The position numbers and the translations under genes were made by a program. Positions 4,834 to 43,754 of a stretch of DNA of 45,765 nucleotides are shown here, in pieces; positions within the stretch are counted from its first letter, which is position 1; each line of letters starts with the position of its first letter. The notes beneath the pieces were generated by a model. The model searched no databases. It saw nothing but the letters and a program-made list of their open reading frames with translations, and was not told the origin of the DNA. The DNA is from a virus, in IMG/VR virus record IMGVR_UViG_3300017767_000027, positions 1 through 45,765 of that record; one strand, written 5' to 3'.

Positions 4834-7800
4834 CTATATTTGGATTTTTAATTTTCTAAACTTTGGACTTTTTATTTTGAGTTTCTTTTTATCTTTTTCT
4901 TTTTTAGCTTTAATTGCTTCTTTTATTTCTTCATCTGTCTTACCTTCTTTCTTCATCTTTTCTTTCATCTTTACTTCCCAAGGCTTGTCAGAATCTAAAG
5001 GTTTAAAAACTTTATTTTTAGATTTTTGTAATTCTAATATCTTCTTAACTCTATCTTCTTCGTTTTTAAGCTTACTTAATTCATACTGCTTTAAATTATA
5101 CTGTTTTAATATACTTATTTGTTCCCAAGCATTATACTTATTAGGTTCTTGTTCATATATTTTTTCTTGATCTTCTAACTTCTGTTTAGAAGTTTTTAAC
5201 TGCCACTCAGGCCAACCACCTAACATAGCTATTCTTTGCCACATATCGTTATCTTCATCTAAAGATCCTTGTATATTATTAAATTTATTTAATACTCTAT
5301 CTAGAGGAACGTTAGTAATTGCAGTTATAACTTTAGCACTAGCTTCATAAGCAGGATTAGTTAATGCAAATCCCTCTGTGGTCATCATCTTTCTTCTTTT
5401 TTTATTATCAAAGTTCCAAGCGGCATTTTTTAATTTAGATATTTTAGAATATATAGGTGGAGACAACTTAGTAAATTCCCAAACAGAGTCAACATACTCA
5501 GGCCTTTTTCTTCCAGATCTTTCATAAATATCTAATAAAAAGTTTTTACCTACAGATACTGCAGCTCCACCAATACCTAAACCTCTTAAAGTAGAATCTA
5601 ACATACTGTTAAGAACTTTAAAGTATTTTTTACCTTTATCTTTTTCGTAAGCTTCTAGCTCTTTATCTGTCATTTCATCTTCATCATCTCCAAAACCTAA
5701 AGCAAAAGTAGCTTGTTGTAACATGTTAAATATTACATTTTGAGCAACTCCGTAATACACTATTTTACTTATATTTGTTTTAGCATCTCCTCTACCATTT
5801 ACTAAATCTTGAATAGCTCTTTTTTGTATTCTAGCATATTGCATAGGTGTGTTTGCCCACGCTAGTATTATTCTACCTAAATCACTAGATTGTTGAGCAG
5901 ATATTTTACTTGGATCAGAAGACTGTTGAGATATTTCTGCTGTCTCTTGCCACTCTAACATAGCTTGTTCTTCAGCTGCTTTTTGATCCATACCTTGCTT
6001 AACTAAATCATTAACTCTATTTCTATAAAAAGTAGCACCACCTGAAGCTATAGCAAAGCTATCAGCATATTGAGTTGGCAAATAACCTTTTTGTAGTATA
6101 TAAGCTATTGCAGCTTTAGCTTTGTTTTTGCTTGTAGCAGCAGCATCAGCTATTTCAGATTCAGATATATTAAGTCTTAAACCGTTACGTCTATCTCTAA
6201 GGTAAGTAGAGTTCATTAACATAGTAAAATCTTTCCAATACTGCTTTTGATTAGCAAAAGCTTTACCAGCTTGTATAGGATTATTAAAACTCCAATTCAT
6301 AAAGTTTACTGCAGATATTGTTTGAAGAACTGCTGATCTAGTATTAAAGAACATAACAGCTCCAACAGATCCGTTTATATAATCTAAAACTTGATTACTT
6401 AATCTATTACCTGTCTCTAGTCTATTTCTACCAGCTTTCATCCTAGCTAGTATATTTTCCATTGCTTCTCTATATTTAGTACCGTATAAAGCTTCTAACT
6501 TGTTTAAGTTTTCTTCAGAAAACATAGCGTTAACATTGTCGGTATATCCAGATTCAGCTAAAAATTTAGATCTCTTTTCTTTATTTATTATATCTATTAA
6601 ATCTCCAGTAATACTACCAGCTAACCAACTCTTAGTAGGATCAGTATACTCTTCTTCTTTAGTTAAAGCTTGTAGTTGATCTGCAAAAAGTTTTAATTTA
6701 GGATTATTTTCTATTGCATCTGATAATTCCTTTAAATCTCTATTAGATAAACCAGGAATTGTTTTGCCAGACTTATTCCATAAATAAACTCTAACTGCTT
6801 GCTCATTTGTAAATCCAGAATCATTTTTCTTTCTTAAATCTTTAGGAACATCAAGAGATTTTTTTAATTGTCTAAAATCATCCATCATATTTATTCTAGC
6901 AGCTCTTAAACCTTCCATAGCTCTAGCGTAAGGATCAAGTAAATTTTCTTTATACCAAGCCATTTGAGCGTCACCTTTAGTTCCTTTAGCAAGAGTTGTA
7001 TACAATAGACCAGTTAAATCTTCAGCTGAATAAGGTATAAAAAATTTAAATTTACCTTTATTAGCTCCAATTGTTTGAGCTTTGTTAGCTGAATACTCTT
7101 TGAAAAATTCTACACCCGTTGATTCTTCTAGTAGTTTATTAAAATCTTCACTAAGCTGTTTAGATTGTTTTATTTTAGCTTGTTGAACTTTAGATTTAAC
7201 ACCTATAACACTTAACACATCTTGTACAGCTTTAACGTTTTGATAAGCATCATCTGCAAAATAAAAATCATTATATCCTTCTGCCGCTTTATCTATTATC
7301 CAGTTTGCTTTAGCTTCACCAGGAGACTTACCAAGCCCTACTATATTTTCTCTTTTAAACTCTAAACCTTCAGCTTTTAAGAAGTCATATATAGCTGTCT
7401 CAGCATTAGGACCTCTTGCTGTGAGTACAAACAAATCTTCATTGCCTCTTGCTTCTTTTATAGTTTGTGCAACTTTAAATAGTGGCCCACGCCCTCCTTC
7501 AGTAACATTATCAAAGTCGCTAAAGTCCATAGTCCACCCATCTTCTATCATTTGAGCTGCGTCAGTTGCAAACTTTTCTGCGTTCATTTCAACTCTTTCA
7601 TTTCCTCTTGTAGCAAAAACTTTATTATTACTAGTTGCTAATGTATCGTCAAAGTCAAATACTCTAATTTTTTTAATAGGTTTATCTAAAGCATTAGCGT
7701 TTGCTAAAGCATCGTCAATACTAGCAGCTTTACTTAGCAGCTCACCCATACTCAAATCTCCTTCATCAATATCTAAAACTTTAGATTGTTTTAAAGTGTT

Positions 7801-17827: not shown

Positions 17828-19546
17828 TTAAGATGATCTTACAAATGTAGATCCTACTGACCAAAGCTCTTTAACACCTCCTATATTAGTAGACTCATCA
17901 GTTGATATAGTTACGGTAGCAAAAAATCCTTTTATGCCTGATTTTTGAGCTCCAAAAGAAACTTCATAAGGTGCAACTGGAGATGAGTTTATTAAATTAG
18001 CAGTGTATAAATTTTCTTTTAAATGAAAGCCAGCATGTTTAGGTTGGCCTGTTATACTATCTACATAGTAACCATCTTGTAAACTTTTAACTACAGCACT
18101 TGTATCAGAAGTTTCTAAAAAACTATTATCATAATAATTTTCTACTTGACCTGTTGCACCACTTTCAAACTTATCAACTTGCCATCCAGCTGATCCTTCG
18201 TAATTAACTGTTAAAAAATTCTTTTTAAGACTAGGTGATTGATTAAACAAAAACGTTATACTAGACTTAGATGGGCTTGAGCCATAAAAACTATTATGAG
18301 GTACTGTTTGATCATAGTGATCCCAAACTTGATTCTCAAAAGTTGATATAAAAGAATTGTTTAGACTATCCATAAGTATAGGCGTGTAAGTATAGAAACT
18401 AGTCCAACCTAAAGCACTCTCATCAAAAGATAAAGTTTCAGAAGCTCTTTTCATGTCTACACCACCTCCATTAACAACACTATTAGGTGTTTGTATAGAT
18501 AAAGTATAAACATCTTGATACATATCGTAAGCTCCAACAACTTTATTATTATCCCATTTAGATATAAAAAAAGGAGTTTTACCTGATATAGTTATCGCTC
18601 TATCTATAATCACTTGTCTTTTGTTATTATTACTACCACCTTGGTCACTAACAGCTCCTAAGTCTAATATAGTATAAACATTACCTTGATATGTAAAGTT
18701 CATACCTATTTCTAAACTTCTAACTGCATTGCTAATTACTTCAAATTCAAAAACATTATTTAACGGAGAGTCACGATTAGCAACTTGAATTCCGTATTTT
18801 TGAAAATCATTATTTATTACTTCAAATTGATCTCTAAAATAATCTTTCATACCATATTGTGATACTTCAGTTATACCATCCATTGATAACCTACACACAA
18901 CACCTTTATTATTGTCTACAAAATAACTTCTAAAACCTTTTTTAGCAAAAGATTCTGGAAAATTACCAATACCATATTCACCTGCAAAAGGTAAATTTTG
19001 ACCTAATACTAAAGTAGAAGCTGTTAGCTGTGGATTACCGTCAGCTGTAAAAATAGCGTCTTTATCCACTAGCGTTCTACTAACTTTTAAATCTTGAAAA
19101 ATTCTTAAATCTGTATCTGTTGCGTAAAATTTTCTTATACTACCATATCTAGGATCTACTTCTTTAGTTATATTTTCAGCAATAGAAAAAACATTAGTTG
19201 CATTAAAACCAGTTGCTGAATTAAATACTCCTGAAAATATTATACCATTATTACTAGTTTGCCCACTATTATTTTCTGTAGATAAATAAGCTCTAGGCCC
19301 TAATTCAGTTTGATTATTATTATAACCTCCTCTTATTCTAGATTCTTCAACATACCAAGATTGATCTTTGACAGTAGTATTAAGATTTGCAAGAGCTGGA
19401 AATGTAGGGTATCCAGTAGGGTTCCAAGGTAGACCTGGCCACTGTGCAATAATATCACCCCATGGTGGTCTACTAGAAGTAGGGTTTATACCTGCTTTCT
19501 TTAATAAAAAAGAGTTGAAATAAGATGTTTCTACAATAGTACTCAT
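17828..19546 (-). CDS. Tail structural protein, C-terminal-muzzle-like
   Basis: A 572-residue beta-rich, Asn/Ser/Gly-rich protein. The most recognisable segment, about residues 130-245, contains Y-G-S-I-R-K-F-Y-A-T-D-T-D-L, then V-S-R-T-L-V-D-K-D-A-I-F, F-A-G-E-Y-G-I-G, P-E-S-F-A and R-S-Y-F-V-D-N-N-K-G-V-V. I recall this block as conserved in tail (muzzle or stabilisation) proteins of crAss-like and marine podovirus phages, where it can lie in one long chain. Here it is a separate gene, 9 bases after the stop of the larger tail protein and in the same frame. The A/T-only leader before its ATG looks like every other start in the operon, so I treat it as an independent gene. Confidence 0.8.
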   Translation of the reverse strand: MSTIVETSYFNSFLLKKAGINPTSSRPPWGDIIAQWPGLPWNPTGYPTFPALANLNTTVKDQSWYVEESRIRGGYNNNQTELGPRAYLSTENNSGQTSNNGIIFSGVFNSATGFNATNVFSIAENITKEVDPRYGSIRKFYATDTDLRIFQDLKVSRTLVDKDAIFTADGNPQLTASTLVLGQNLPFAGEYGIGNFPESFAKKGFRSYFVDNNKGVVCRLSMDGITEVSQYGMKDYFRDQFEVINNDFQKYGIQVANRDSPLNNVFEFEVISNAVRSLEIGMNFTYQGNVYTILDLGAVSDQGGSNNNKRQVIIDRAITISGKTPFFISKWDNNKVVGAYDMYQDVYTLSIQTPNSVVNGGGVDMKRASETLSFDESALGWTSFYTYTPILMDSLNNSFISTFENQVWDHYDQTVPHNSFYGSSPSKSSITFLFNQSPSLKKNFLTVNYEGSAGWQVDKFESGATGQVENYYDNSFLETSDTSAVVKSLQDGYYVDSITGQPKHAGFHLKENLYTANLINSSPVAPYEVSFGAQKSGIKGFFATVTISTDESTNIGGVKELWSVGSTFVRSS

Positions 19547-29450: not shown

Positions 29451-30605
29451 TTAGTTGTTGTTTTTATTTTTTACTTTAAATTTCAACTTAGAACTATCTG
29501 CACCACTAATTGCTCTTACTTTTAAACCATTAACAAACACATCACCTCCAGCTTGTGGCCTAGGTTCATTTGTTATATTTTTAGATTTAGCCATAACATC
29601 TTTTAAAGCATCGGCTTTGCCTTGCTCATAAAAATGATTAGCAATAGTATCTGCGTTATCAGCGGCGTACATAGCTTTGTGATAACCTACAGCATCAACA
29701 ACTTCACCCTCATTGTTTAAGAACTTCTTAACAAAAGTGTTTAAGTTTGACTGTTTTTCAACAACATTAGATGTGTTTTGAACATTATAATGAAACTTCT
29801 TTTCTGCAAGATTAAATTCAAAACCTTTGAATTCATCAGAAAATATTTTATTTGTCTGCTCTACAAATCTATCATGTCGCTCTTCAGCTACTTTTTGTTC
29901 TTTGTTGTATCTATTGAAAAAGTCCATAGCTTTTTGTTGTTCTTGAGTTACGCCGGGTCTCAACTTGATTTCGTCGTAATATTTACTCTTTGTTTCTTCC
30001 AAAAAGTTTTTGGCTTTAGCAATTTCTTCTTTAGCGGCTAACCGCTTTAATTTAATTTCTTTTTCATCATCCACATCTTCGTCAAAAGAAAATTTATCTT
30101 CTAATAAAAAGTTTATTTCTTCTCTATCTAAATGTGGTTTTGTTTGCTTGTAATACTCTTGTAGCAATGTGTCATTATCTACTTTGCTGTAATCAGCATT
30201 TAATCTAACATAATCTTCAACTGTTCCACCAGTTTCTTCCATAAATGAAACTAGTTTTTCAATATTTTCAGGTAATTGCTTACCTAATAATTTTTCGTCT
30301 CTTTTAGCTTCTTTTACTTCTCTTTCAAGCTCATCAGTTTTTTCTTCTACTATTTCTGTAATAGGAGATTTTATTTCTTCTTCTTTACCCTCAACGGCAG
30401 TAGTTTGTTTTTCGTGTGTTTCTCCCACTTTCTCGCCATCTGCGGATCGTTGGCCCACATCCACTTTCGTTGTGCTTGACTCTTGAACGGCATTTTCTGG
30501 TTTTTTAGTTAAATCTACTTTGTATTCTTTGTTTTCTATTTTTTTAAAAGAAGGTTTTTTAATTTTTAAAGGTTCAACCTTCTCTTCTTTAAGTTTTTCT
30601 GACAT
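29451..30605 (-). CDS. Capsid scaffolding protein candidate
   Basis: A 384-residue, highly charged protein dominated by Lys and Glu, predicted mostly helical with coiled-coil stretches (residues 75-115 and 185-260). Residues 1-80 look disordered, and a basic C-terminus (S-S-K-L-K-F-K-V-K-N-K-N-N-N) could bind capsid subunits. It lies between portal and major capsid genes, the standard scaffold position. No protease motif was seen, so a separate maturation protease, if any, lies elsewhere. It contains one K-S-P-I-T-E copy of the motif discussed in the findings, possibly by chance. Confidence 0.75.
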   Translation of the reverse strand: MSEKLKEEKVEPLKIKKPSFKKIENKEYKVDLTKKPENAVQESSTTKVDVGQRSADGEKVGETHEKQTTAVEGKEEEIKSPITEIVEEKTDELEREVKEAKRDEKLLGKQLPENIEKLVSFMEETGGTVEDYVRLNADYSKVDNDTLLQEYYKQTKPHLDREEINFLLEDKFSFDEDVDDEKEIKLKRLAAKEEIAKAKNFLEETKSKYYDEIKLRPGVTQEQQKAMDFFNRYNKEQKVAEERHDRFVEQTNKIFSDEFKGFEFNLAEKKFHYNVQNTSNVVEKQSNLNTFVKKFLNNEGEVVDAVGYHKAMYAADNADTIANHFYEQGKADALKDVMAKSKNITNEPRPQAGGDVFVNGLKVRAISGADSSKLKFKVKNKNNN

Positions 30606-30627: not shown

Positions 30628-33060
30628 TTACATTGGTTGCTCACCACCAATGCTAGGTGTAACTCCTTGTGTTGAATCAACCAAAGAGTTAAAAGGATCT
30701 TCAAAGTCAATAGACGCAGAGTTATTAGCTCTTTGACTAATCATTTTACTTTGTTGAGTTCCTTCTAGTTTTGTTCTTTTATCTTTTCTATCTTCAATAA
30801 ATTTTTCTCTTGTAGCTATTTCTTGCAAGTCCATTTGTTTTAATTGCATATCATAACTAAACTTAAGTTCCATCAACTGCTTATCTATTTCAGCTTTTTT
30901 CATCATCTCACTTATATCTAGTTGAGATTTAGCTTTTTCAACATTTACTGTAGTTTCTGCTATACCTTGTTGCTTTTGTAACTCTGCTAATGCCGATGCT
31001 TCTGTAGCTTTAGCGTTTGCTTCTGCCTGTGCTTGAATATTAGCCTGTTGATTTCTTTGATCTCTTTCTGCTTTTCTTCTTCTTCTTTCTTTTAGCATTT
31101 GATTTGCTAACTTAATATTCTTTATCTCTCTAAGATCTATAGCATCTTCTAAATCTATTCCTCCAGATTGTAAAGCTATTTGGATATTCTTTTCTAATTG
31201 AGCTTGTTGCTCTTCGTCTGGTTCTAGCTCTATAAATATTCCAAAATCATGAAGATTTAAATCGCTTATTTCTGATAAAGTAGCTAGATTATATCTTGAT
31301 ATACTATTCTCTAAAGCTTGCTTTGTAAAAGGAAATTCTAATGAGTCGCTTATTCTTAATGATACATTTTCTGCTGTTCTAACAGTTAGATACGACATCG
31401 CTTGTACTAAATGTCTAGTTGCTGTATTAGATGCATTAGCGGCTAACTTTTGTAATCCTACTAACGTATCTTTACCAGGAGTTGAACCGTCTCTAGCTTC
31501 ATTTAAACCTGTTACATCTCTTATCATCTGTAAATAATATTGATAAGTTTGTATTAGCGTATTTATTTTACCACCACCAGATCCAGTTTGTAATTCTTGT
31601 ATTGGAACTTTACCTCTGTTAGGATCACCATCTTGAGTTAAACTTCTACCAACTATACTACCAGTTTGAAAATACATGTTTAAAGCTTCAGCTGGATTAT
31701 AATTTGTACCATTACCTAAATCAACCTCAGCTAAACCATCCATATCTAAGAATACACCATCAGGTACCATTCTAGCTAATACTTGTTGTATCTTTAAATG
31801 AGTCAACTGTATCATGTCAGCAAAACCTGTAATTCTACTAACCACTGACTCTATACGGCCTTTATACATCCTAGGAGCACATATGTTATAATTCATTTTA
31901 ACTCTAGTTGTATCAGCAAAAGGTCTTGTCATGTTTTCAGCTAATCCCCATTTCAACATAAGAGGGTGACCTAATATTTTAGCTCCACTATATAAAGTTT
32001 CTATAGTTCTAGATACAACTTCAAAATTATCATTTTCAGGCGGGTTAAAAGTATCAGGTTTTTCTAAAGCTTTTTCCAGTCCTGTAGCTGTTTTTTTAAC
32101 TTTAAATACTTGATCAGAATAAGTTTTATATTCAAAATACATAACTTGAACTGTTTGTTGATCGTTTCTACCACTCCAGTTTCTTAGATATTCTGAATTG
32201 CCAGGATATTTTTGTATTTGTTCCATTTCCTCATCTGAAAGATATGGAAATTGAGTTTTTAAATCAGCTAAATTTATGCTTTTAACTTCTCCTACGTAAT
32301 ATATGTCTTCAAAATTAGGATCATCTGTGTAAGAATATATTAGTGTAGCAGGATCAACATAATCTACTATTATACCTTTTTCTTTACTCCAGTTAGTTTT
32401 TACAGCACCTATTCCTAACACTGTCAAATCTTGAGCTAATCTTCTTCTAGTTAAATCGTATTTATTTCTATTTAGCACATCTTCTAATAATTCTTCTTCT
32501 GCTATTTCTACAGACTGCTTATAATCTAGTTGTAAATGTAGTTTAACTTCTTCATCGGACTCTAGTCCTAATTCTTTAAATTGAGGTGACGTAATGGTTA
32601 TACCTAATGTTTGATTAACTTGTTCTGCTAATTCTCTTTCTTGAACATCACGCATTAAATCTCTAGCGTATTTAGTTCTTTGTTGTATTGAAAATGGATC
32701 TACTGCAAAAGCTTTTAATTCGTAAGACTTTTCTGACATACCATTAACAACTATATCTACAAATTTAGCAATAACAGGTACTGGTTTCCAGTCTATATTT
32801 AAATAAGACAAATCTCCATTAATTGCTAATTCATCTTTATATTTTTGTACAGACTGTTCGCCTCTTGCATAAAGCCTTAAGTTATGATAGTTATTATAGT
32901 TAATGGCATAGCCACTACCCATTGCCCCACCTCTATAGTTTCTGAACCACTCTCCTTCTATAGCTCTACCTACAGCAAGACCATATTCTAAAGTAGCTTT
33001 TTCTGCATCTGGTACTACCTGACTGGGAAAAGAACTATTAGTGTTGTATGAAATTTGCAT
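30628..33060 (-). CDS. Portal protein, crAss-like
   Basis: This 810-residue protein forms the DNA entry and exit channel at one capsid vertex. It starts with an N-terminal region containing Y-N-N-Y-H-N-L-R-L-Y-A-R-G-E-Q-S and the segment L-N-I-D-W-K-P-V-P-V-I-A-K-F-V-D-I-V-V-N, which I recall from crassvirus portals. Later blocks include Y-V-D-P-A-T-L-I-Y-S-Y-T-D-D and R-D-V-T-G-L-N-E-A-R-D-G-S-T-P. The C-terminal 170 residues are Gln/Lys/Glu-rich coiled-coil (Q-Q-A-N-I-Q-A-Q-A-E-A-N-A), fitting a portal barrel. It lies directly after the large terminase and before the scaffold candidate. Confidence 0.9.
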   Translation of the reverse strand: MQISYNTNSSFPSQVVPDAEKATLEYGLAVGRAIEGEWFRNYRGGAMGSGYAINYNNYHNLRLYARGEQSVQKYKDELAINGDLSYLNIDWKPVPVIAKFVDIVVNGMSEKSYELKAFAVDPFSIQQRTKYARDLMRDVQERELAEQVNQTLGITITSPQFKELGLESDEEVKLHLQLDYKQSVEIAEEELLEDVLNRNKYDLTRRRLAQDLTVLGIGAVKTNWSKEKGIIVDYVDPATLIYSYTDDPNFEDIYYVGEVKSINLADLKTQFPYLSDEEMEQIQKYPGNSEYLRNWSGRNDQQTVQVMYFEYKTYSDQVFKVKKTATGLEKALEKPDTFNPPENDNFEVVSRTIETLYSGAKILGHPLMLKWGLAENMTRPFADTTRVKMNYNICAPRMYKGRIESVVSRITGFADMIQLTHLKIQQVLARMVPDGVFLDMDGLAEVDLGNGTNYNPAEALNMYFQTGSIVGRSLTQDGDPNRGKVPIQELQTGSGGGKINTLIQTYQYYLQMIRDVTGLNEARDGSTPGKDTLVGLQKLAANASNTATRHLVQAMSYLTVRTAENVSLRISDSLEFPFTKQALENSISRYNLATLSEISDLNLHDFGIFIELEPDEEQQAQLEKNIQIALQSGGIDLEDAIDLREIKNIKLANQMLKERRRRKAERDQRNQQANIQAQAEANAKATEASALAELQKQQGIAETTVNVEKAKSQLDISEMMKKAEIDKQLMELKFSYDMQLKQMDLQEIATREKFIEDRKDKRTKLEGTQQSKMISQRANNSASIDFEDPFNSLVDSTQGVTPSIGGEQPM

Positions 33061-34549: not shown

Positions 34550-34552
34550 TTA
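34550..34552 (-). other. In-frame TAA codon interrupting the large terminase
   Basis: The minus strand reads ATG-GAC-AGG-CCA-TAA-ACT-GAA-TTG-GCT-TAT, so the stop sits inside one continuous frame (M-D-R-P-stop-T-E-L-A-Y). A single A-to-T change from AAA (Lys), or a C-to-T change from CAA (Gln), would explain it. All three stop codons are used normally elsewhere in the window, so a global code change is unlikely. Confidence 0.85.
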
Positions 34553-37158: not shown

Positions 37159-37608
37159 TTATTTATTTATCTTTGTTATTTTTTCAGCACCACGACTTCC
37201 GAAGTATGCTACATAAACTGTTACCAGTAATGTTTTTAATAAGTTTATCCAAGCATCATCAACTTGAAATTGCAAGTGAAAAGAATCTACAGCCATCATA
37301 AACACAGCTGATGCTGTTAAAAATATAAGAGCTAGAGGTCTTGTGTTTTTACTAAGCCAAGAGTCTGATTTCATATCAGATCTCCACCTACTTGACACTT
37401 CTTTCATTTCAGCTATATCTTGCTCTATAAACTTCATAGCTTGCTCTTTATCAACAGCCTTAATCTTATTATCACTTGATATAAGATTTTTTACTACACC
37501 AAGAGTTCCTTGGTTCGGTAATATGTCTCCTATAGCATCTAAAACCTTAGGAGCTTTACTAGCTAGAAAAGCCCCTACTTTAGTTTCTTTAAATGTTTTC
37601 TTTTCCAT
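37159..37608 (-). CDS. Holin, GTA-type three-helix family
   Basis: A 149-residue protein with an amphipathic N-terminal half and two clear membrane segments, about residues 93-112 (L-A-L-I-F-L-T-A-S-A-V-F-M-M-A-V) and 121-140 (L-L-K-T-L-L-V-T-V-Y-V-A-Y-F). They are bracketed by D-S-W-L-S-K-N-T-R-P and F-G-S-R-G-A-E-K, the signature of the holin family first described for gene-transfer-agent release. Holins make lesions in the inner membrane and time lysis. The start overlaps the previous stop as TAATG. The amidase it would release lies 4.5 kb upstream in the same operon. Confidence 0.85.
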   Translation of the reverse strand: MEKKTFKETKVGAFLASKAPKVLDAIGDILPNQGTLGVVKNLISSDNKIKAVDKEQAMKFIEQDIAEMKEVSSRWRSDMKSDSWLSKNTRPLALIFLTASAVFMMAVDSFHLQFQVDDAWINLLKTLLVTVYVAYFGSRGAEKITKINK

Positions 37609-38123
37609 TAGTTTGCAGCTTCATAATTTCCAGCCATACCTTCTCCTTTTACTTGAGCAGTCATTGATTGATTAAGAGCTCCTGACATATCTCTTTCTGC
37701 TACATCTTGCGCGCGAGAAAAAGGATATTTTTTCGTTCTATCTCCTTCACCCCTTGATAAAAGATTTCTATATGTTTCTTGATCTATCACTTGATGTAAC
37801 TTACCTTTCGTAGTAGGAGTGTTATTAAACTTATGATATTGAGTATCGCCTTTTTTATTCATATATTTGACAATTCTAGTGCCTTTATCATTAACAAACT
37901 CACCTTTTGGTTGATAACCATCTCTAATCATATAATTGACATTTCCGCCAACCTGCTCTGCCGGTCTATCTACTAATTTAGCCTGTCCTTCTTCTTCTTC
38001 TTCACCAGTACTAGAAACAGTATTGCCACTTAGTTTAACTGGAGAATCTGATATTAAACCTCTTTTCTGCATAGGAGAATAAGAACACTTTTTCTTACCT
38101 ATTGGTGACATTTTAAAAGCCAT
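37608..38123 (-). CDS. K-S-P-motif protein, function unknown
   Basis: A 171-residue soluble protein starting M-A-F-K-M-S-P-I-G-K-K-K, followed by Y-S-P-M-Q-K and D-S-P-V-K-L, three S-P motifs in the first 31 residues. A Glu-rich patch (G-E-E-E-E-E-G-Q) and a mixed globular part follow (N-Y-M-I-R-D-G-Y-Q-P-K-G-E-F). No enzyme motif was seen. Its N-terminal motif is shared with at least four neighbouring proteins that are otherwise unlike it, which suggests a common targeting or packaging signal. It is TAATG-coupled on both sides. Confidence 0.8.
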   Translation of the reverse strand: MAFKMSPIGKKKCSYSPMQKRGLISDSPVKLSGNTVSSTGEEEEEGQAKLVDRPAEQVGGNVNYMIRDGYQPKGEFVNDKGTRIVKYMNKKGDTQYHKFNNTPTTKGKLHQVIDQETYRNLLSRGEGDRTKKYPFSRAQDVAERDMSGALNQSMTAQVKGEGMAGNYEAAN

Positions 38124-39877
38124 TATCTATTGCTTTTGAAATGCTTAGATAATACACTTCCTAACTTTTTAAGTTGTCTAGCTGGAGCTGCCATATTCTT
38201 AGCTGCATATCCACCACCATCTTGATTACTTTTCATTTTAGTAGGTGAAGCTTCTTTCATTGGCTTCATTCTTTTAAAGGTCGCCATCTCATGTTTCTTT
38301 TCATACGGTACCATTTTCATTGGCTTAAACTCAGTGTTACCTGTACGTTTACCTGGTCTAGCGCTAGAACCTAGTTTAACTGCCATTTTTTTAACTTTAC
38401 GTTTTTCGCCACCTTTCATCATACTTGGAGACTTTTTCATTTTAGCAGCAGAATCAATAGCCATAACTTTAGACATTTTTTTATCAGCTTTTTTAAAACC
38501 TTTATCAATTCTTTTATCGTACCTTTTTGCTGAGACGTCTTTTTTTCTAGGTTTTAAATTTCCAGGTCTACCTCTAAAGTTAGATAAGTTATCAAACTTT
38601 TCTACCTTATCCATCAATTTAGCTCTTTTCTTAGAAGGATTTTTCATTTTAGCAGGAGATTCACCAGCTGCCATTTCTAAAGCTTTTTTCTTTTCGTACT
38701 TAGCTTCTTTTTTCTTTCCAGACTTATAATCAGCAATAGCATTTCTAGCGTAGTCTTGCTCTACTTTTTGCTTTGATTTTTTAATTGGTGCAGTTCCTTT
38801 TGTTTTTACTTTAGATGGATTCTCTGCTAAGGGTTGAGCATTAGAAGCATATGTAGTTTTCTTTACATATCTTTTTTTACCTTTTCTTTTAACTGTTGGA
38901 TTTTCAGCTAAAGGCTTAGCATTAGAAGCATATTCTCTTTTTACTCTTGTAACTTCTTTTTTCTTGTTACCTTTTACAGTCGTCTTAGTAACATTACCAT
39001 GCGCATCAGTGCTTTTTGATTTTTGTTTTTTCATTGGCGCTTTCATTTTAGCAGGTGATTTATCCATCATTTTAATTCCTGACTTAGATAACATTTTAGC
39101 AGGAGCTTTTAATATTGCTTCTTGTAGTTCTTTTGGTAATTTCTTTTGTCCGCCAACCAAAGGTTTTTTAGCAGGTGACTTCATTTTAGCCGGTGCTTTA
39201 CCTTGAGCACTAGACTTGTTTCCAGAAAACTTCTTATTTTTCATTTTCTTTTCCATACCTTCAGATTCATCTCTACGAGATTTCATTGATTGTTTTTTCT
39301 TACCGTTTTTAGCTCCTAAAGAGTCATCTAAACGTGCATTATATCCTTGTTTTTTCATTGTTGTTGGTGATTTTCTATTTTCGACAATTACATCAGAAGA
39401 GCCTTCTTTGTTTTTTCCTTTAGCAAATTTAGTATGCAGTCTTTGTGATTTTTTAGTACCACCTGCAGCTCTTTTAACTTTAGTTTTAGTAGTTCCGTCT
39501 TTTTTTGTTTTTGTTTTGTGTAGTTCAACAGTGTTTGATAATCTTGAAGACTTTCTTTTCTGGTAAGGCTTGTTAGGATCATCTTTAACACCACTGTCAT
39601 AAGCTTTTTCGTGCTTGAAAGTTTTTATTTCTACTTTTTTACCTTTTTTATCAGTGTAAGATCTACTTTTATCAGCTACTCTATTTTTGTCTCTTATAAC
39701 AGCTGTTGGCTTACGTTTTTTAGTAGCTGGTGACTTTGCTCTAGCTTTTTGCTTTGCAGTTGGCCCTGAGCCAGCACCTTTCATTTTAGCATTAGCTACA
39801 GATCCAGCAATTTTAGTAGCTGCTGTTTTGCTTTTGCCTTCTTTCATTAATTTTTTTACTAAACTTTCAAAACTCAT
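38123..39877 (-). CDS. Lysine-rich protein with many S-P-A-K-M type motifs (DNA-binding candidate)
   Basis: A 584-residue, extremely Lys-rich, low-complexity protein. The N-terminus S-F-E-S-L-V-K-K-L-M-K-E-G-K-S-K-T-A-A-T plus an A-K-M-K-G-A-G-S-G-P segment is a pattern I recall from marine phage proteins. The body carries repeated K-S-P-A-K-M, K-A-P-A-K-M, E-S-P-A-K-M and related copies. A duplicated segment, Y-A-S-N-A-K/Q-P-L-A-E-N-P, occurs twice in the middle. The S-P-x-K pattern resembles the tails of linker histones and would suit binding to AT-rich DNA, but no folded DNA-binding domain is apparent. I chose ATG 39877 because it overlaps the upstream stop as ATGA. An upstream ATG at 39910 is less likely. 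Confidence 0.8.
   Translation of the reverse strand: MSFESLVKKLMKEGKSKTAATKIAGSVANAKMKGAGSGPTAKQKARAKSPATKKRKPTAVIRDKNRVADKSRSYTDKKGKKVEIKTFKHEKAYDSGVKDDPNKPYQKRKSSRLSNTVELHKTKTKKDGTTKTKVKRAAGGTKKSQRLHTKFAKGKNKEGSSDVIVENRKSPTTMKKQGYNARLDDSLGAKNGKKKQSMKSRRDESEGMEKKMKNKKFSGNKSSAQGKAPAKMKSPAKKPLVGGQKKLPKELQEAILKAPAKMLSKSGIKMMDKSPAKMKAPMKKQKSKSTDAHGNVTKTTVKGNKKKEVTRVKREYASNAKPLAENPTVKRKGKKRYVKKTTYASNAQPLAENPSKVKTKGTAPIKKSKQKVEQDYARNAIADYKSGKKKEAKYEKKKALEMAAGESPAKMKNPSKKRAKLMDKVEKFDNLSNFRGRPGNLKPRKKDVSAKRYDKRIDKGFKKADKKMSKVMAIDSAAKMKKSPSMMKGGEKRKVKKMAVKLGSSARPGKRTGNTEFKPMKMVPYEKKHEMATFKRMKPMKEASPTKMKSNQDGGGYAAKNMAAPARQLKKLGSVLSKHFKSNR
38817..38932 (-). repeat. Duplicated 35-base unit within the lysine-rich gene
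   Basis: Two units, 38817-38851 and 38898-38932, encode Y-A-S-N-A-Q/K-P-L-A-E-N-P and differ at only a few bases. They are separated by a Lys/Arg-rich spacer. Confidence 0.75.
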
Positions 39878-40236
39878 TTTTTCTCTTTTTTGTATGCTTC
39901 TTGTTCCCACGGAAACGACTTACTACCTTCCATGATCCATTTGCCTTTGTATTTTATTTTACCGTTTTTACGTGGATAAGATTTTCCTTCCCACTCTATA
40001 GATGTATCAGAATAGTTTAAACCTTTTTTACCATTTGATTTTTCAAATCTTTTAAATTGATTAACATGAACTTCTTCATGATCTATAACTTCCTCAAGTT
40101 GCTTAGGATCATCTATTCTATTATTAATAGTTATAGTGCCGTTATTGTTAGCTCTACCTAAAACATCGTTCTCGTCATCTACCATATATATTGGCGTTGT
40201 TTGTTTCTCATAAGGAGATTTTAATTTAAATGCCAT
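39874..40236 (-). CDS. HExxH metallopeptidase-like small protein with N-terminal K-S-P motif
   Basis: A 120-residue protein that starts M-A-F-K-L-K-S-P-Y-E-K-Q and contains V-I-D-H-E-E-V-H-V-N-Q-F (about residues 50-61), a zinc-peptidase H-E-x-x-H motif. A later P-W-E-Q-E-A-Y provides a possible third Glu ligand. W-E-G-K-S-Y lies between them. I recall marine phage proteins with the same order (H-E-x-x-H, W-x-G-K-x-Y, W-E-x-E-A-Y). Whether it cleaves proteins is untested. A missing ligand would make it a degenerate relative. It overlaps the lysine-rich gene by ATGA and shares its S-P motif. Confidence 0.8.
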   Translation of the reverse strand: MAFKLKSPYEKQTTPIYMVDDENDVLGRANNNGTITINNRIDDPKQLEEVIDHEEVHVNQFKRFEKSNGKKGLNYSDTSIEWEGKSYPRKNGKIKYKGKWIMEGSKSFPWEQEAYKKEKK

Positions 40237-40245
40237 AATATATAT

Positions 40246-40998
40246 TTAACAATTCCATCTACGTCTAGCAGCTCTACCTCTTTCACCAGTCCATCCTTTT
40301 GATCTAGCACAAAATGATTTTCTACGTTTTGCATCTTTACTACCAGGTTTTAACTTTGAAGGATCTTTTGTTACTGCAGTTTTTAATTTACTACCTGGAT
40401 TTTTTCTTTTGTATTCATTAACACCTTTTTGTGTCATACCACCACCTGCTTTAGCTCCAGTTCCAGTAGGATTAGCTTTATTAAAGTTTTTACCTCTACC
40501 AATAGTTTTTCTTGGCTCTGCTTTTTTAGCAGGCGATTTTTTACAACTACCTTTTGTACCTTTAGCAGTTCCTGGAACTCTCTCATAACCTTGCCAACAT
40601 TTAGCTGGAGATTTTTTCTCACCTGGCGCTTTTTCACCACATTTCAAACTAGGATTAGCAACTTGTCTCCAATCTTGTTTTACCCAGTTTTTTAAACTAC
40701 CTCCACTACTAGTGCCTGTAGTATTACTTTTAGAAGATCTTTTATATTCACCTGCTGCGCCTGCTTTTCTTTTAGCTCTAACTATTTTGGATTTTTCACC
40801 AGAGCTCATGCTTCTAATTTTAGCTAAAGGTAAACATACTTTTTTAGTACCACCGCCTTTTGCTCTAACTTTTCTCATAGCAGGACTTTTATCTTTAATG
40901 CTACTTAAATAACCATCAATTATATTAGCTTGCTTTTCGTGAGCTTTAACTGATTTTTTAAGCTGTGATGATACTTTTTTTAATTTACTTGCTTCCAT
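40246..40998 (-). CDS. Basic Cys-containing protein with K-S-P motifs and R-R-K-S-F-C-A-R C-terminus
   Basis: A 250-residue Lys/Gly/Ser-rich protein. A helical N-terminus is followed by D-K-S-P-A-M-R-K, K-V-C-L-P-L-A-K-I-R-S-M-S, S-L-K-N-W-V-K-Q-D-W-R-Q-V, two K-K-S-P-A-K copies (one as S-P-A-K-C-W-Q), and a C-terminal block R-R-K-S-F-C-A-R-S-K-G-W. The N-W-V-K-Q-D-W and R-K-S-F-C-A-R blocks remind me of short basic domains of unknown function (DUF5872- and DUF6321-like) seen in phages and large viruses, a recollection that needs a profile search. It overlaps the PAP2 gene by 14 bases. Confidence 0.75.
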   Translation of the reverse strand: MEASKLKKVSSQLKKSVKAHEKQANIIDGYLSSIKDKSPAMRKVRAKGGGTKKVCLPLAKIRSMSSGEKSKIVRAKRKAGAAGEYKRSSKSNTTGTSSGGSLKNWVKQDWRQVANPSLKCGEKAPGEKKSPAKCWQGYERVPGTAKGTKGSCKKSPAKKAEPRKTIGRGKNFNKANPTGTGAKAGGGMTQKGVNEYKRKNPGSKLKTAVTKDPSKLKPGSKDAKRRKSFCARSKGWTGERGRAARRRWNC

Positions 40999-41524
40999 TT
41001 TGTTTTAAGTGGTTATACATAGCTTTTCCTAATTTTTTACCCATATCAGAATCATATTTATAATGAGCTCTTGCTACATTTCTAGCGTCTGATATTTCGT
41101 TTCCTACTTGCAAAAACTCATCGTTGTCGTATTTATCAGCTAAATAATTACCTATTAACACGCCTTGGGCAGAGTGACCTGAAGGATAAGATGGTGTTTT
41201 CATAGAAGCTAGTTCTAAAGTATCTATGTCAATACCATATTGTTTTGCTTGATCTTTTGGCCTAGGTCTATTATAATATTTTTTTAGCTTTAATATAACA
41301 CTAGCAGATCCATCTGTTAATTTATCTATTTCCTGTTTGTCTAGTTTTATATTTTTTTTATCTGCTACTTCTTTGAAAGATCCATATATGTTGTCTCTCT
41401 TTTTTACAAAGCTTTTGTTAATAGGTATGTTTTTTAAAGATTTTATCTCTGATAAAGTTCTTAATGAACCATCTGCAGGAGGAGGCATATTCTTAAATTG
41501 AGAATAATCAAACTCTTCAAACAT
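40985..41524 (-). CDS. PAP2-superfamily phosphatase (soluble acid-phosphatase type)
   Basis: A 179-residue protein with all three PAP2 signatures: K81-x6-R88-P89, P-S-G-H at 114-117, and R148-x5-H154-x3-D158 (an Ala replaces the usual leading Ser). These form the phosphate-binding and His-nucleophile site of phosphatidic-acid phosphatases, bacterial acid phosphatases and vanadium haloperoxidases. No signal peptide or membrane span is visible, so it is probably cytoplasmic or a virion component. The substrate could be lipid phosphate, isoprenyl pyrophosphate or nucleotides. I start at ATG 41524, 1 base after the preceding stop. A longer N-terminal extension to 41593 would overlap another gene. 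Confidence 0.85.
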   Translation of the reverse strand: MFEEFDYSQFKNMPPPADGSLRTLSEIKSLKNIPINKSFVKKRDNIYGSFKEVADKKNIKLDKQEIDKLTDGSASVILKLKKYYNRPRPKDQAKQYGIDIDTLELASMKTPSYPSGHSAQGVLIGNYLADKYDNDEFLQVGNEISDARNVARAHYKYDSDMGKKLGKAMYNHLKQNGSK

Positions 41525-41525
41525 T

Positions 41526-41666
41526 TTAACACTTACCTTTACCTTGTTGTTTAGAAGCCCACATATTAGCATAAGCTGATGGGTAAACATCAAACTTTTT
41601 TCTAGCAGCAGCCTTACAAGATGCTGATAGTTTTCTTAACGCTGGTGAGTTATTTACTTTTTTCAT
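41526..41666 (-). CDS. 46-residue basic protein with Y-P-S-A-Y-A-N motif
   Basis: A short protein reading K-K-V-N-N-S-P-A-L-R-K-L-S, then A-A-R-K-K-F-D-V-Y-P-S-A-Y-A-N-M-W-A, ending with a single Cys. The D-V-Y-P-S-A-Y-A-N block is one I recall in phage and large-virus proteins as a small conserved basic module (DUF5872-like). It carries an S-P motif near its N-terminus and belongs to the same cluster of small K-S-P proteins. Start and stop fit exactly between the neighbouring genes. Confidence 0.75.
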   Translation of the reverse strand: MKKVNNSPALRKLSASCKAAARKKFDVYPSAYANMWASKQQGKGKC

Positions 41667-41669
41667 AAC

Positions 41670-42083
41670 TTATAATTTTCTACCTTTTTTATCAACTTTT
41701 ACTTCTTTTACTATTACTCTAGTATTAGGTTTTTTGTTCTGTAATTCTTCTAACTGTCTATTAAGCTCTTCTAGCTTACCATCAGCTTCTGTACCATCTT
41801 TAATCATACTAGCAGTTATACCAATTTCTTCTTTTAATATATCTTGAGTCTGCTCAAGCATTTCTACTTGATCTTTTAGTTGGATTATCATCTTCTCGTT
41901 CCACTCTTCTTTTAGTTCATATTCTAAGCGAGTAACTTCTATAGGTGGTAATTTTCTAGCTTCTTCAATATCTGCTTGTAGTGTATAATACATACCTACA
42001 AAAGAGGCTGTAACCATTATTATCGCTACTACAGTTTTTAAATCAAGTTGTATGTTAGTGTTTTCAGAGATCTTTGTACTCAT
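41670..42083 (-). CDS. Membrane-anchored coiled-coil protein (spanin-like candidate)
   Basis: From ATG 42083 the product is 137 residues. It has a short N-terminus, one membrane segment at about residues 17-33 (V-V-A-I-I-M-V-T-A-S-F-V-G-M-Y-Y), then a long acidic coiled-coil (residues 35-115) and a basic tail. Topology and placement, overlapping the end of the amidase gene by 20 bases, resemble an inner-membrane spanin, though no lipoprotein partner is apparent. A tail or membrane-tether role is also possible. Confidence 0.75.
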   Translation of the reverse strand: MSTKISENTNIQLDLKTVVAIIMVTASFVGMYYTLQADIEEARKLPPIEVTRLEYELKEEWNEKMIIQLKDQVEMLEQTQDILKEEIGITASMIKDGTEADGKLEELNRQLEELQNKKPNTRVIVKEVKVDKKGRKL

Positions 42084-42477
42084 TGGTTGCATCAAATGAT
42101 GGGCATGCTTTATTAGCAAACTCATTGTGTGAATAAATAATAGCATCTGGATACATAGCCTTTAACGTTTTAAGGACATGTAACAGACTTTCTTTTTGTA
42201 TTTGTGTTCTAGTATCCTTCGGAGTCTTACCATCTGCTTCAACGCCTCCACAATAACATAACCCTATGCTATTTCTATTATGCGACTTGCAATGAGCTCC
42301 GACACGATCTATATCTCTACCTTTTTTAATAGTTCCATCTAGTTCGATGTAGAAATGATAGCCAATGTCGCTCCACCCTCTAGAGTTAACATGCCAGTCT
42401 CTTATTGTTTCAACTGGTATGTCTTGTCCTTCTCTAGTAGCAGAGCAATGTATAATAATTTCTTTTATATTTCTCAT
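42064..42477 (-). CDS. N-acetylmuramoyl-L-alanine amidase, T7-lysozyme type (endolysin)
   Basis: The 137-residue protein matches the amidase-2 family, which cuts the bond between muramic acid and L-alanine in peptidoglycan. Zinc ligands are visible at H10 (I-I-I-H-C-S-A-T), H117 (Y-S-H-N-E-F) and C125 (K-A-C-P-S-F-D). Lys 123 matches the T7 catalytic Lys two residues before the Cys ligand. The fold blocks G-W-S-D-I-G-Y-H-F-Y-I, D-G-T-I and N-S-I-G-L-C-Y are in order. There is no cell-wall-binding domain, as in T7. It sits beside membrane-protein genes that could act as holin and spanin. Confidence 0.93.
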   Translation of the reverse strand: MRNIKEIIIHCSATREGQDIPVETIRDWHVNSRGWSDIGYHFYIELDGTIKKGRDIDRVGAHCKSHNRNSIGLCYCGGVEADGKTPKDTRTQIQKESLLHVLKTLKAMYPDAIIYSHNEFANKACPSFDATNEYKDL

Positions 42478-42478
42478 T

Positions 42479-42910
42479 TTATCTATTTACGAGTTCAGTC
42501 ACACCTGCTTCTTCACTAGCTAAAGCTCCTCCTTTTAAACCTGATTTTATTTTTTTATCTGCTTCTTGATACTCTGCATCTTGTACTCTAAAATTACCTG
42601 CAGCATTAAAATAATCTCTTTTAACTTTCTTAGTTTCACCAACGTTTACTAAGTTTGTTTCTCCAGTCATTCTATTTACAACCTTTATCATGCCTGTCTT
42701 AGGATCCATCTTAGCGCCGTCTGCTACTTGATTGTTCATATACAAGTTATACGCAGCTTCTCCTTCAGGTGTTTTGTTAAACCTTTTAAATGATTCTTGC
42801 TCTGCTTTATGAAAATCCATATTTGCTTCTCTTCTAGCTCTAGCAGTTTCCGTTTCTCCTTCAGTGATTTTTATAGGGCTCTTGCTTAAAAAACTATCTC
42901 TCCAGCTCAT
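42479..42910 (-). CDS. K-S-P-motif protein, function unknown
   Basis: A 143-residue soluble, charged protein starting W-R-D-S-F-L-S-K-S-P-I-K-I-T-E-G. Its middle has K-T-P-E-G-E-A-A-Y-N-L-Y-M-N-N and beta-like G-M-I-K-V-V-N-R. A Gly-rich stretch (S-G-L-K-G-G-A-L-A) precedes the C-terminus. The K-S-P-I-K-I near the N-terminus is one of the shared motifs of this cluster. It lies between the small holin-like gene and the amidase, with one base between its stop and the amidase start. Confidence 0.75.
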   Translation of the reverse strand: MSWRDSFLSKSPIKITEGETETARARREANMDFHKAEQESFKRFNKTPEGEAAYNLYMNNQVADGAKMDPKTGMIKVVNRMTGETNLVNVGETKKVKRDYFNAAGNFRVQDAEYQEADKKIKSGLKGGALASEEAGVTELVNR

Positions 42911-42913
42911 ATT

Positions 42914-43072
42914 TTATTTTTCTTTTTTCTTTAGTAAATACCATTTGTGAGCAGTATAACCTAAAGTGGTTAATAACAATAGTATAGACAATACAGGCTC
43001 TAGCCATCCTAGACTAACAACCGTAGCTGATGTTATATTTAAACAGTACAGCTTTAAATCTTCTAAACCCAT
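42914..43072 (-). CDS. Small single-pass membrane protein, holin candidate
   Basis: A 52-residue protein with a polar N-terminus, one hydrophobic stretch at about residues 26-41 (P-V-L-S-I-L-L-L-L-T-T-L-G-Y-T-A) and a Lys-rich end (Y-L-L-K-K-K-E-K). An amphipathic segment precedes it (C-L-N-I-T-S-A-T-V-V-S-L). This layout is common in small phage holins, and the endolysin is two genes downstream. It begins in a one-base TAATG overlap with the preceding small gene. It competes with the 149-residue GTA-type holin for the same role. Confidence 0.65.
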   Translation of the reverse strand: MGLEDLKLYCLNITSATVVSLGWLEPVLSILLLLTTLGYTAHKWYLLKKKEK

Positions 43073-43230
43073 TATCTTTGAGCTAATAATGCTGGATTAC
43101 CTTTATATTCGATATTATCGATTTGTCTTAATGTTGGTGTGATTGTAGAGTTATTACTTTTCATAACTCTCGTGCCTAGCTTACCGCATCCGCATTTTAA
43201 TTTTACTCCTGTTCCTGTAATTGGTTTCAT
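43072..43230 (-). CDS. Hypothetical 52-residue protein with C-G-C-G motif
   Basis: The product starts K-P-I-T-G-T-G-V-K-L-K-C-G-C-G-K-L-G-T-R-V and ends N-P-A-L-L-A-Q-R. Two closely spaced cysteines (C-G-C-G) could bind a metal but are too few to define a zinc finger. Its start at 43230 follows the stop at 43245 by 14 bases, and its stop overlaps the next gene. No family is recognised. Confidence 0.6.
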   Translation of the reverse strand: MKPITGTGVKLKCGCGKLGTRVMKSNNSTITPTLRQIDNIEYKGNPALLAQR

Positions 43231-43244
43231 ATCTTTGTTTTTGA

Positions 43245-43754
43245 TTATCCAAAAGCTGGTCTTACACCTTTGCCTTTTTCAATTTGTTTTTGATTTTTTT
43301 TATACGACTTAGCAGGGTTTTTCATATCTTTTTTATATTTTTCCTTTGCTTTATCTAGTTTTTTTTTATCTTCATCTTCTCCATCTTCTTCATCATCTGC
43401 CATTAAAGCTGCCCTTTGTGCTGCTAAAACACCTTCTGCCGCACCTAAAGAATTATCTATGGTTTGCGCTGTTCCTGGATCATCATAGTTGTTAACTGGA
43501 GACTTCATTTGAGTTGGAGATGGTGGCATGTTCTGAGCTATATTATTAAACTTTTGAAAAGCTTGAGCTTGCTGTGCTGACTGCATACCTGGATCTACTA
43601 TTGTTCCCATAGGCTGCATACTATTTAAACTTCTATCAGGTACACCTGCTCTATTTGGCATAGGCATTTGGCCTGGTACCATTTGACCTGGTACATTAAC
43701 TGGAGCTCCACTAACTGGGTCTACAATTTTAAATGGTGATTTTCTATTTTTCAT
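43245..43754 (-). CDS. K-S-P-motif protein, Pro/Met/Gln-rich, function unknown
   Basis: A 169-residue, probably largely disordered protein. The N-terminus K-N-R-K-S-P-F-K-I-V-D-P-V leads into Pro/Met/Gly repeats (V-P-G-Q-M-V-P-G-Q-M-P-M-P). A second copy M-K-S-P-V-N-N-Y, an acidic patch (D-D-E-E-D-G-E-D-E-D) and a basic tail with M-K-N-P-A-K-S-Y-K-K follow. It is the first of the K-S-P proteins after the chaperonin genes and ATGA-coupled to the preceding gene. Confidence 0.75.
   Translation of the reverse strand: MKNRKSPFKIVDPVSGAPVNVPGQMVPGQMPMPNRAGVPDRSLNSMQPMGTIVDPGMQSAQQAQAFQKFNNIAQNMPPSPTQMKSPVNNYDDPGTAQTIDNSLGAAEGVLAAQRAALMADDEEDGEDEDKKKLDKAKEKYKKDMKNPAKSYKKNQKQIEKGKGVRPAFG

Follow-up and report, generated by a model that had tools for sequence, protein, structure and literature searches.

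A putative virion-targeting leader peptide on unrelated small late proteins of an aquatic podovirus lineage

Background

Cargo-loading peptides of encapsulins are short, disordered and usually C-terminal, and they bring varied cargo into an HK97-fold shell. The internal proteins of T4 have only a leader in common, which directs them into the head, and several of them disarm host restriction (PMC3012670, PMC12373910). The crassvirus virion likewise holds protein cargo, in capsid and tail (PMC10172136). This study describes a short N-terminal leader observed in the window, i.e. the whole 45,765-nucleotide stretch of virus record IMGVR_UViG_3300017767_000027, and in its relatives. We interpret it as a putative virion-targeting address tag, comparable to the T4 capsid targeting sequence (CTS) but outside that family, and give this reading a probability of roughly 0.55.

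Results

Identification of the conserved unit

In the loci compared, the conserved unit is the leader M-A-[F/Y]-K-[M/L/Q]-[K/x].., after which S-P-[hydrophobic]-K-[K/Q/M] usually comes. It was 6 to 25 residues long, took the forms MAFKMK.., MAYKQSPGR.. and MAFKLK.., and occurred on small, otherwise unrelated late proteins. Unbiased loci of relatives (L numbers below) were fetched by terminase or portal similarity only and then split at the terminase; gene calls were simple open reading frame (ORF) picks and several contigs were fragments. Counted over these related sequences, and hence over non-independent events, MA[FY]K[MLQI] starts occurred 38 times upstream of the terminase (0.1 expected) and 0 times from the terminase onward. 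The pattern SP[ALMFIVY][KNQR][KQMHNRCI] was found 50 times upstream, versus 8.6 expected (standard deviation 2.8) and 6 for the reversed pattern, while the terminase and later genes held 20 (19.3 expected). For KSP, the corresponding figures were 48 versus 27.6 (standard deviation 5.4) upstream and 35 versus 48.5 in the terminase and later genes. When the order of residue classes was permuted, the 38 late-strand starts compared with 0-7 for each of the 23 other orders, 12 when summed.

An earlier note on this DNA had singled out K-S-P as a motif shared by a cluster of small proteins. All the peptides it named were recovered at their ORFs, on the minus strand: FKLKSPYEK (residues 3-11 of 39874-40236), FKMSPIGK (3-10 of 37608-38123), RKSPFKI (4-10 of 43245-43754), SKSPIKI (9-15 of 42479-42910), NSPALRK in 41526-41666, KSPAMRK, KKSPAKC and KKSPAKK in a 250-aa protein, and several KSPA/SPAKM copies in a 584-aa protein. 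The enrichment over shuffled controls on which the note had staked its proposal was also obtained, since the cluster contained 12 KSP against 1.2 expected and 0/2000 per-protein shuffles reached 12. It persisted without the two Lys-rich proteins (4 versus 0.4, p=0.001), and the remainder of the window gave 4 versus 2.3 (p=0.2). Yet K-S-P did not stand as the unit: the near-invariant part is instead the N-terminal [A]-[F/Y]-K-[M/L/Q], S/T-P-x-K being secondary and degenerate. KSP was rejected as core motif, as outside the leader it showed no enrichment in the tagged set (4 versus 3.4 expected). K-S-P is just the visible edge of a larger N-terminal feature.

Distribution in public viral contigs

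A search of public viral contigs with a DNA pattern for MAFKMK[ST]PF retrieved 29 stretches, in which these nine residues preceded several unrelated proteins, and no stretch when S and P were swapped. MAYKQ[ST]PG gave 73 stretches (about 37 distinct proteins) and MAFKMKG at least 120, with roughly 100 distinct proteins among the matches listed; the scrambled control MKAMFGK gave 31 stretches, and 26/26 placeable ones were internal to a few homologous proteins. Pooled, at least 402 distinct tagged proteins among the matches listed fell into 113 clusters once their first 25 residues were removed (E<0.01), an approximate partition in which low-complexity Lys-rich members may join or split clusters. 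Tagged proteins were small (median 124 aa), Lys-rich (16%) and 87% Cys-free, and membrane-like segments occurred in 0 of them versus 14% of other small proteins.

Among the matches listed, portal phrog_6547 was present in 48/50 tag-bearing contigs that reached 30 kb, versus 0/31 scrambled-control contigs; the two contigs without it measured 120 and 232 kb. MAFKMK copies in 43 portal-bearing contigs were all on the portal strand (79/79), and the reversed pattern was found twice. A scan of bacterial genomes for the tag returned 5 metagenome-bin stretches, none with a tagged ORF by the gene caller used, and no paper came up when the literature was searched in full text for the peptide.

The window was assigned to flavobacterial podoviruses by its portal (phrog_6547), major capsid protein (phrog_13704) and terminase (phrog_6681), with MW202828, Maribacter phage Panino, the Flavobacterium elemo phages and Cellulophaga phi38:1/Calle as relatives among named phages. 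The tag lineage is one of abundant uncultured aquatic phages. Start contexts 5' of tagged genes were A-rich (A at -3 and at -13 to -11) and their tally gave no clear Shine-Dalgarno signal, a combination that fits a Bacteroidota host.

Modularity of leader and payload

One phage lineage shares this leader among numerous small late proteins that are unrelated to each other, and the leader is exchanged between them as a module. The proteins at 37608-38123 and L089:3892-4548 had 24/25 leader residues in common, while the remaining ~190 residues of the L089 protein could not be aligned. This, together with the unrelated cores behind one leader, strongly supports the suggestion of the earlier note that the motif is a transferable signal rather than a domain. 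Cores also occurred in tagged and untagged versions: a DUF6321-type core (L302, L272; 84% identity over 90 aa), the KGGGTTKTC core of L394 and part of L352 (91% over 110 aa), and a DUF5872-like core, tagged in L175:6711-6875 and 90% identical over 40 aa to the protein at 41526-41666. Relatives of the latter display MAYKMKGCSLLKKKSPVKR at the same place as its MKKVNNSPALR.

In the 250-aa protein, SIKDKSPAMRKVRAKGGGTKKV aligned with AFKMKSPFAKKTKAKGGGTTKV of a separate tagged 92-aa protein (L171; 71% identity over 91 aa), and the internal KSPs lie just before modules found elsewhere as separate, often tagged, small proteins. Because these adjacent modules occur as separate tagged proteins, the internal KSPs are read as former leaders, which suggests that they were left behind where modules fused and are not signals in their own right. 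The 584-aa protein is likewise a mosaic, separate stretches of it matching different small proteins of relatives, and its internal KSPs too would lie where modules are joined.

Conservation of the motif against the rest of the protein, a comparison proposed in the earlier note, came out in its favour for the metallopeptidase. F3 and K4 were at least 90% conserved, nearly level with the catalytic HExxH, whereas residues 6, 7 and 10-12 varied freely; only M1, catalytic H53, E54, H57, and E111 were invariant among 50 aligned sequences. An M[AS][FY][KTI][MLQIV] start was found in 113/154 family members. Homologues in Xanthomonas phage XacN1, Methylophilales phage Melnitz-3 and Ochrobactrum phage OC had different N-termini. 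The AlphaFold2 model of 39874-40236 displayed weak fold similarity to small HExxH peptidases, with pLDDT 60 for residues 1-10, 81-94 elsewhere, and secondary structure first from residue 16. In this one protein modelled, the leader is predicted to be unstructured.

Resemblances in scaffold, portal and giant protein

The N-terminal part of the presumed scaffold (gene between portal and major capsid protein) contained QEG[ED]FK[IML]KKKTPKKL, in the window PLKIKKPSFKK. [FL]K[MILV]K was present in 91% of 120 scaffold relatives versus 13% in shuffles, and the broader motif within the first 40 aa in 58% versus 2%. The portal (30628-33060 and relatives) kept [FL]K[MILV]K in 76% of relatives versus 11% in shuffles, which may simply reflect the usual conservation of a single homologous position.

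The giant protein was said in the earlier note to end in KIKSPKF. The peptide is present, but RKLKIQI comes after it, so that it lies near, not at, the C-terminus. No such copy was seen at the C-terminus of those giant proteins of relatives that could be read, and LKIKSPKFR is probably outside the tag system, contrary to its inclusion in the note. In several giant proteins of relatives (L192, L211, L327, L402) the end is formed by a Cys/His-rich module, for example RCKNKTENKNKKCYAHQ, that also has the look of a portable unit.

Features of the window

Coordinates are collected in Table 1. The proteins at 37608-38123 and 39874-40236 carry the full tag, and those at 41526-41666, 42479-42910 and 43245-43754 reduced S-P versions.

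Table 1. Leader, leader-like and related features of the window
Feature	Position	Strand	Basis
Leader MAFKMSPIGKKKCSYSPMQKRGLIS, 25 residues, of the 171-aa protein 37608-38123	38049..38123	-	24/25 identical to the L089:3892-4548 leader
Small tagged protein, leader and unrelated payload	37608..38123	-	No confident family match
Tag MAFKLKSPY of the HExxH metallopeptidase-like protein	40210..40236	-	50-sequence alignment
Tagged zincin-like metallopeptidase (HEEVH)	39874..40236	-	AlphaFold2 model and weak fold similarity
Leader-like N-terminus MKNRKSPFKI of 43245-43754	43725..43754	-	Sequence; relatives found only weak
Leader-like N-terminus MSWRDSFLSKSPIKI of 42479-42910	42866..42910	-	Sequence; no relative of the protein found
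46-aa DUF5872-like protein, short leader MKKVNNSPALR	41526..41666	-	Core match to tagged L175:6711-6875
Internal KSPAMRK of the 250-aa protein	40870..40890	-	Aligns with MAFKMKSPFAKK, the tag of a 92-aa protein encoded separately in L171
Internal KKSPAKC and KKSPAKK of the 250-aa protein	40522..40617	-	Second just before the DUF6321-containing module
250-aa Lys-rich multi-module protein	40246..40998	-	DUF6321 at residues 184-239, Pfam PF19846 E=3.4e-11
584-aa Lys-rich protein, several SPxK copies	38123..39877	-	Parts match separate small proteins of relatives
Tag-like LKIKKPSFKK, N-terminal part of putative scaffolding protein 29451-30605	30540..30569	-	Motif frequency in relatives
LKIKSPKFR near the giant protein C-terminus	4855..4881	-	Window only, not seen in relatives' giant proteins

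Next to the tagged genes, 40985-41590 weakly matched a PAP2-like phosphatase (E=3e-5); in L352, a longer protein holds the KGGGTKKVCLP core further downstream. A single in-frame TAA at 34550-34552 (minus strand) divides the terminase large subunit into same-frame halves of 246 and 492 aa, and reflects a nonsense mutation in this record or else faulty assembly. The tail protein at 17828-19546 matched PF25729, the crassvirus muzzle C-terminal domain, with E=3.7e-7; otherwise this podovirus is nearest to flavobacterial phages.

Discussion

As a virion-targeting tag, the leader would be read by a component of virion assembly, most likely the scaffold core, the portal or the inner capsid surface. 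The particle would thereby take up a variable cargo of soluble proteins, most of them basic, which would probably be delivered together with the DNA. From the similar FK[IML]K..P motif in the scaffold of the window's clade, the leader may mimic a scaffold contact. A broader proposal, that this N-terminal tag arose independently of T4, loads more than 100 interchangeable families into virions and marks putative injected effectors, is in our view about an even bet.

Several observations weigh against virion targeting. Of the 41 loci in which 4 kb or more lay upstream of the terminase, only 27 contained a tagged gene. The leader peptides had no match in a phage isolate collection (short queries, limited sensitivity), and the Panino, elemo and phi38:1 relatives have small proteins without leader. 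The tag-like scaffold motif was clade-limited, occurring in 5/18 contigs with MAFKMK tags versus 25/27 with other tags; as it fails in most MAFKMK-tagged contigs, scaffold mimicry is ruled out as a universal rule and the resemblance is kept as a lead. A T4-type [LI]xE cleavage site, in line with the processing role raised in the earlier note, did not emerge either: [LIV].E was counted 29 times versus 18.4 expected, no better than its reversed control (26 versus 18.1).

The leader might instead recruit proteins elsewhere in the infected cell, for instance to the phage GroEL/GroES, to the machinery of replication or lysis, or to a target in the host. The tagged-gene cluster does sit between the GroEL/GroES genes and the terminase and includes a holin-type gene, and a tag by itself implies just a common binding partner. 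We nevertheless hold such recruitment to be unlikely, given that tagged genes occur only on the late strand and are tied to one head lineage; moreover, to our knowledge chaperonin clients are not usually selected through a 6-residue N-terminal peptide, which counts against GroEL/GroES. That the tagged proteins form one fast-evolving paralogous family, with the leader as residual homology, would agree with the basic, low-complexity nature and unknown fold of many of them, and some core clusters do fuse at lax thresholds. This explanation was already disfavoured by a 25-aa leader 96% identical while the rest is unalignable; with bearers spanning an HExxH peptidase, DUF5872-like, DUF6321 and other proteins, and with cores existing untagged too, it has very little left in its favour.

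Two further explanations concern the S-P residues and the underlying DNA. KSP/SPxK could represent histone-H1-like S-P-K-K DNA-binding motifs of proteins coating the packaged DNA: the 250- and 584-aa proteins are Lys-rich, SP.K occurred 26 times in tagged proteins versus 3.1 expected, and related Cellulophaga phages have small Lys-rich proteins annotated as structural. The strict N-terminal A-F-K-M core, the tagged enzyme domain and the 4 versus 3.4 KSP outside the leader are left unexplained by it, and we find it improbable. As for a nucleotide-level translation-start or recombination element encoding the same residues by chance, it could account for the start-context preference upstream (A-rich at -13 to -3) and for the Ala codon use in the tag, which departs from average. 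Yet codon choice at the tag positions varies for Ala, Phe, Lys and Gly alike, the three tags of one genome differ at synonymous sites, and the peptide is retained in shifted copies (e.g. GSFKMKY, KPFKMKGFP, SPFKMTPGR), making this last explanation scarcely credible.

Function aside, it is unusual for one lineage to share a short leader across more than 100 protein clusters that are otherwise unrelated. If virion targeting is true, sequence alone would pick particle-borne proteins among the hundreds of unknowns of an abundant aquatic phage group. It would also yield a list of candidate injected effectors, much as the T4 leader led to internal proteins with anti-restriction activity, and would offer a portable means of loading proteins into phage heads.

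Among known systems, SPKK DNA-binding proteins carry repeated S-P-basic-basic in Lys-rich tails, which the 584- and 250-aa proteins fit and the N-terminal tags do not. Encapsulin cargo-loading peptides resemble the leader as short disordered peptides, but are usually C-terminal and non-phage. Crassvirus cargo (phi-crAss001 gp45, gp46 and RNA polymerase subunits) is comparable in that the window is also from a podovirus, with a crassvirus-type muzzle domain and a giant protein; in contrast, crassvirus cargo proteins are large, and a text search of PMC10172136 for a targeting signal found none. The T4 CTS (IPI-IPIII) belongs to another phage lineage and is another leader, and packaging by the present leader is putative. 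No prohead protease was found among ten late proteins scanned against Pfam, and the leader is kept out of the CTS family because the accompanying protease site was tested for and not found. Late expression with head genes would agree with gene position (portal strand 79/79, cluster adjoining the terminase). Targeting to the scaffolding core would agree with the similar scaffold motif in the window's clade, which occurred in only 5/18 MAFKMK-tagged contigs. Both systems nonetheless consist of unrelated small proteins with only an N-terminal leader in common, here over 113 core clusters, and have late-strand genes, basic soluble payloads and a payload set that differs between related phages.

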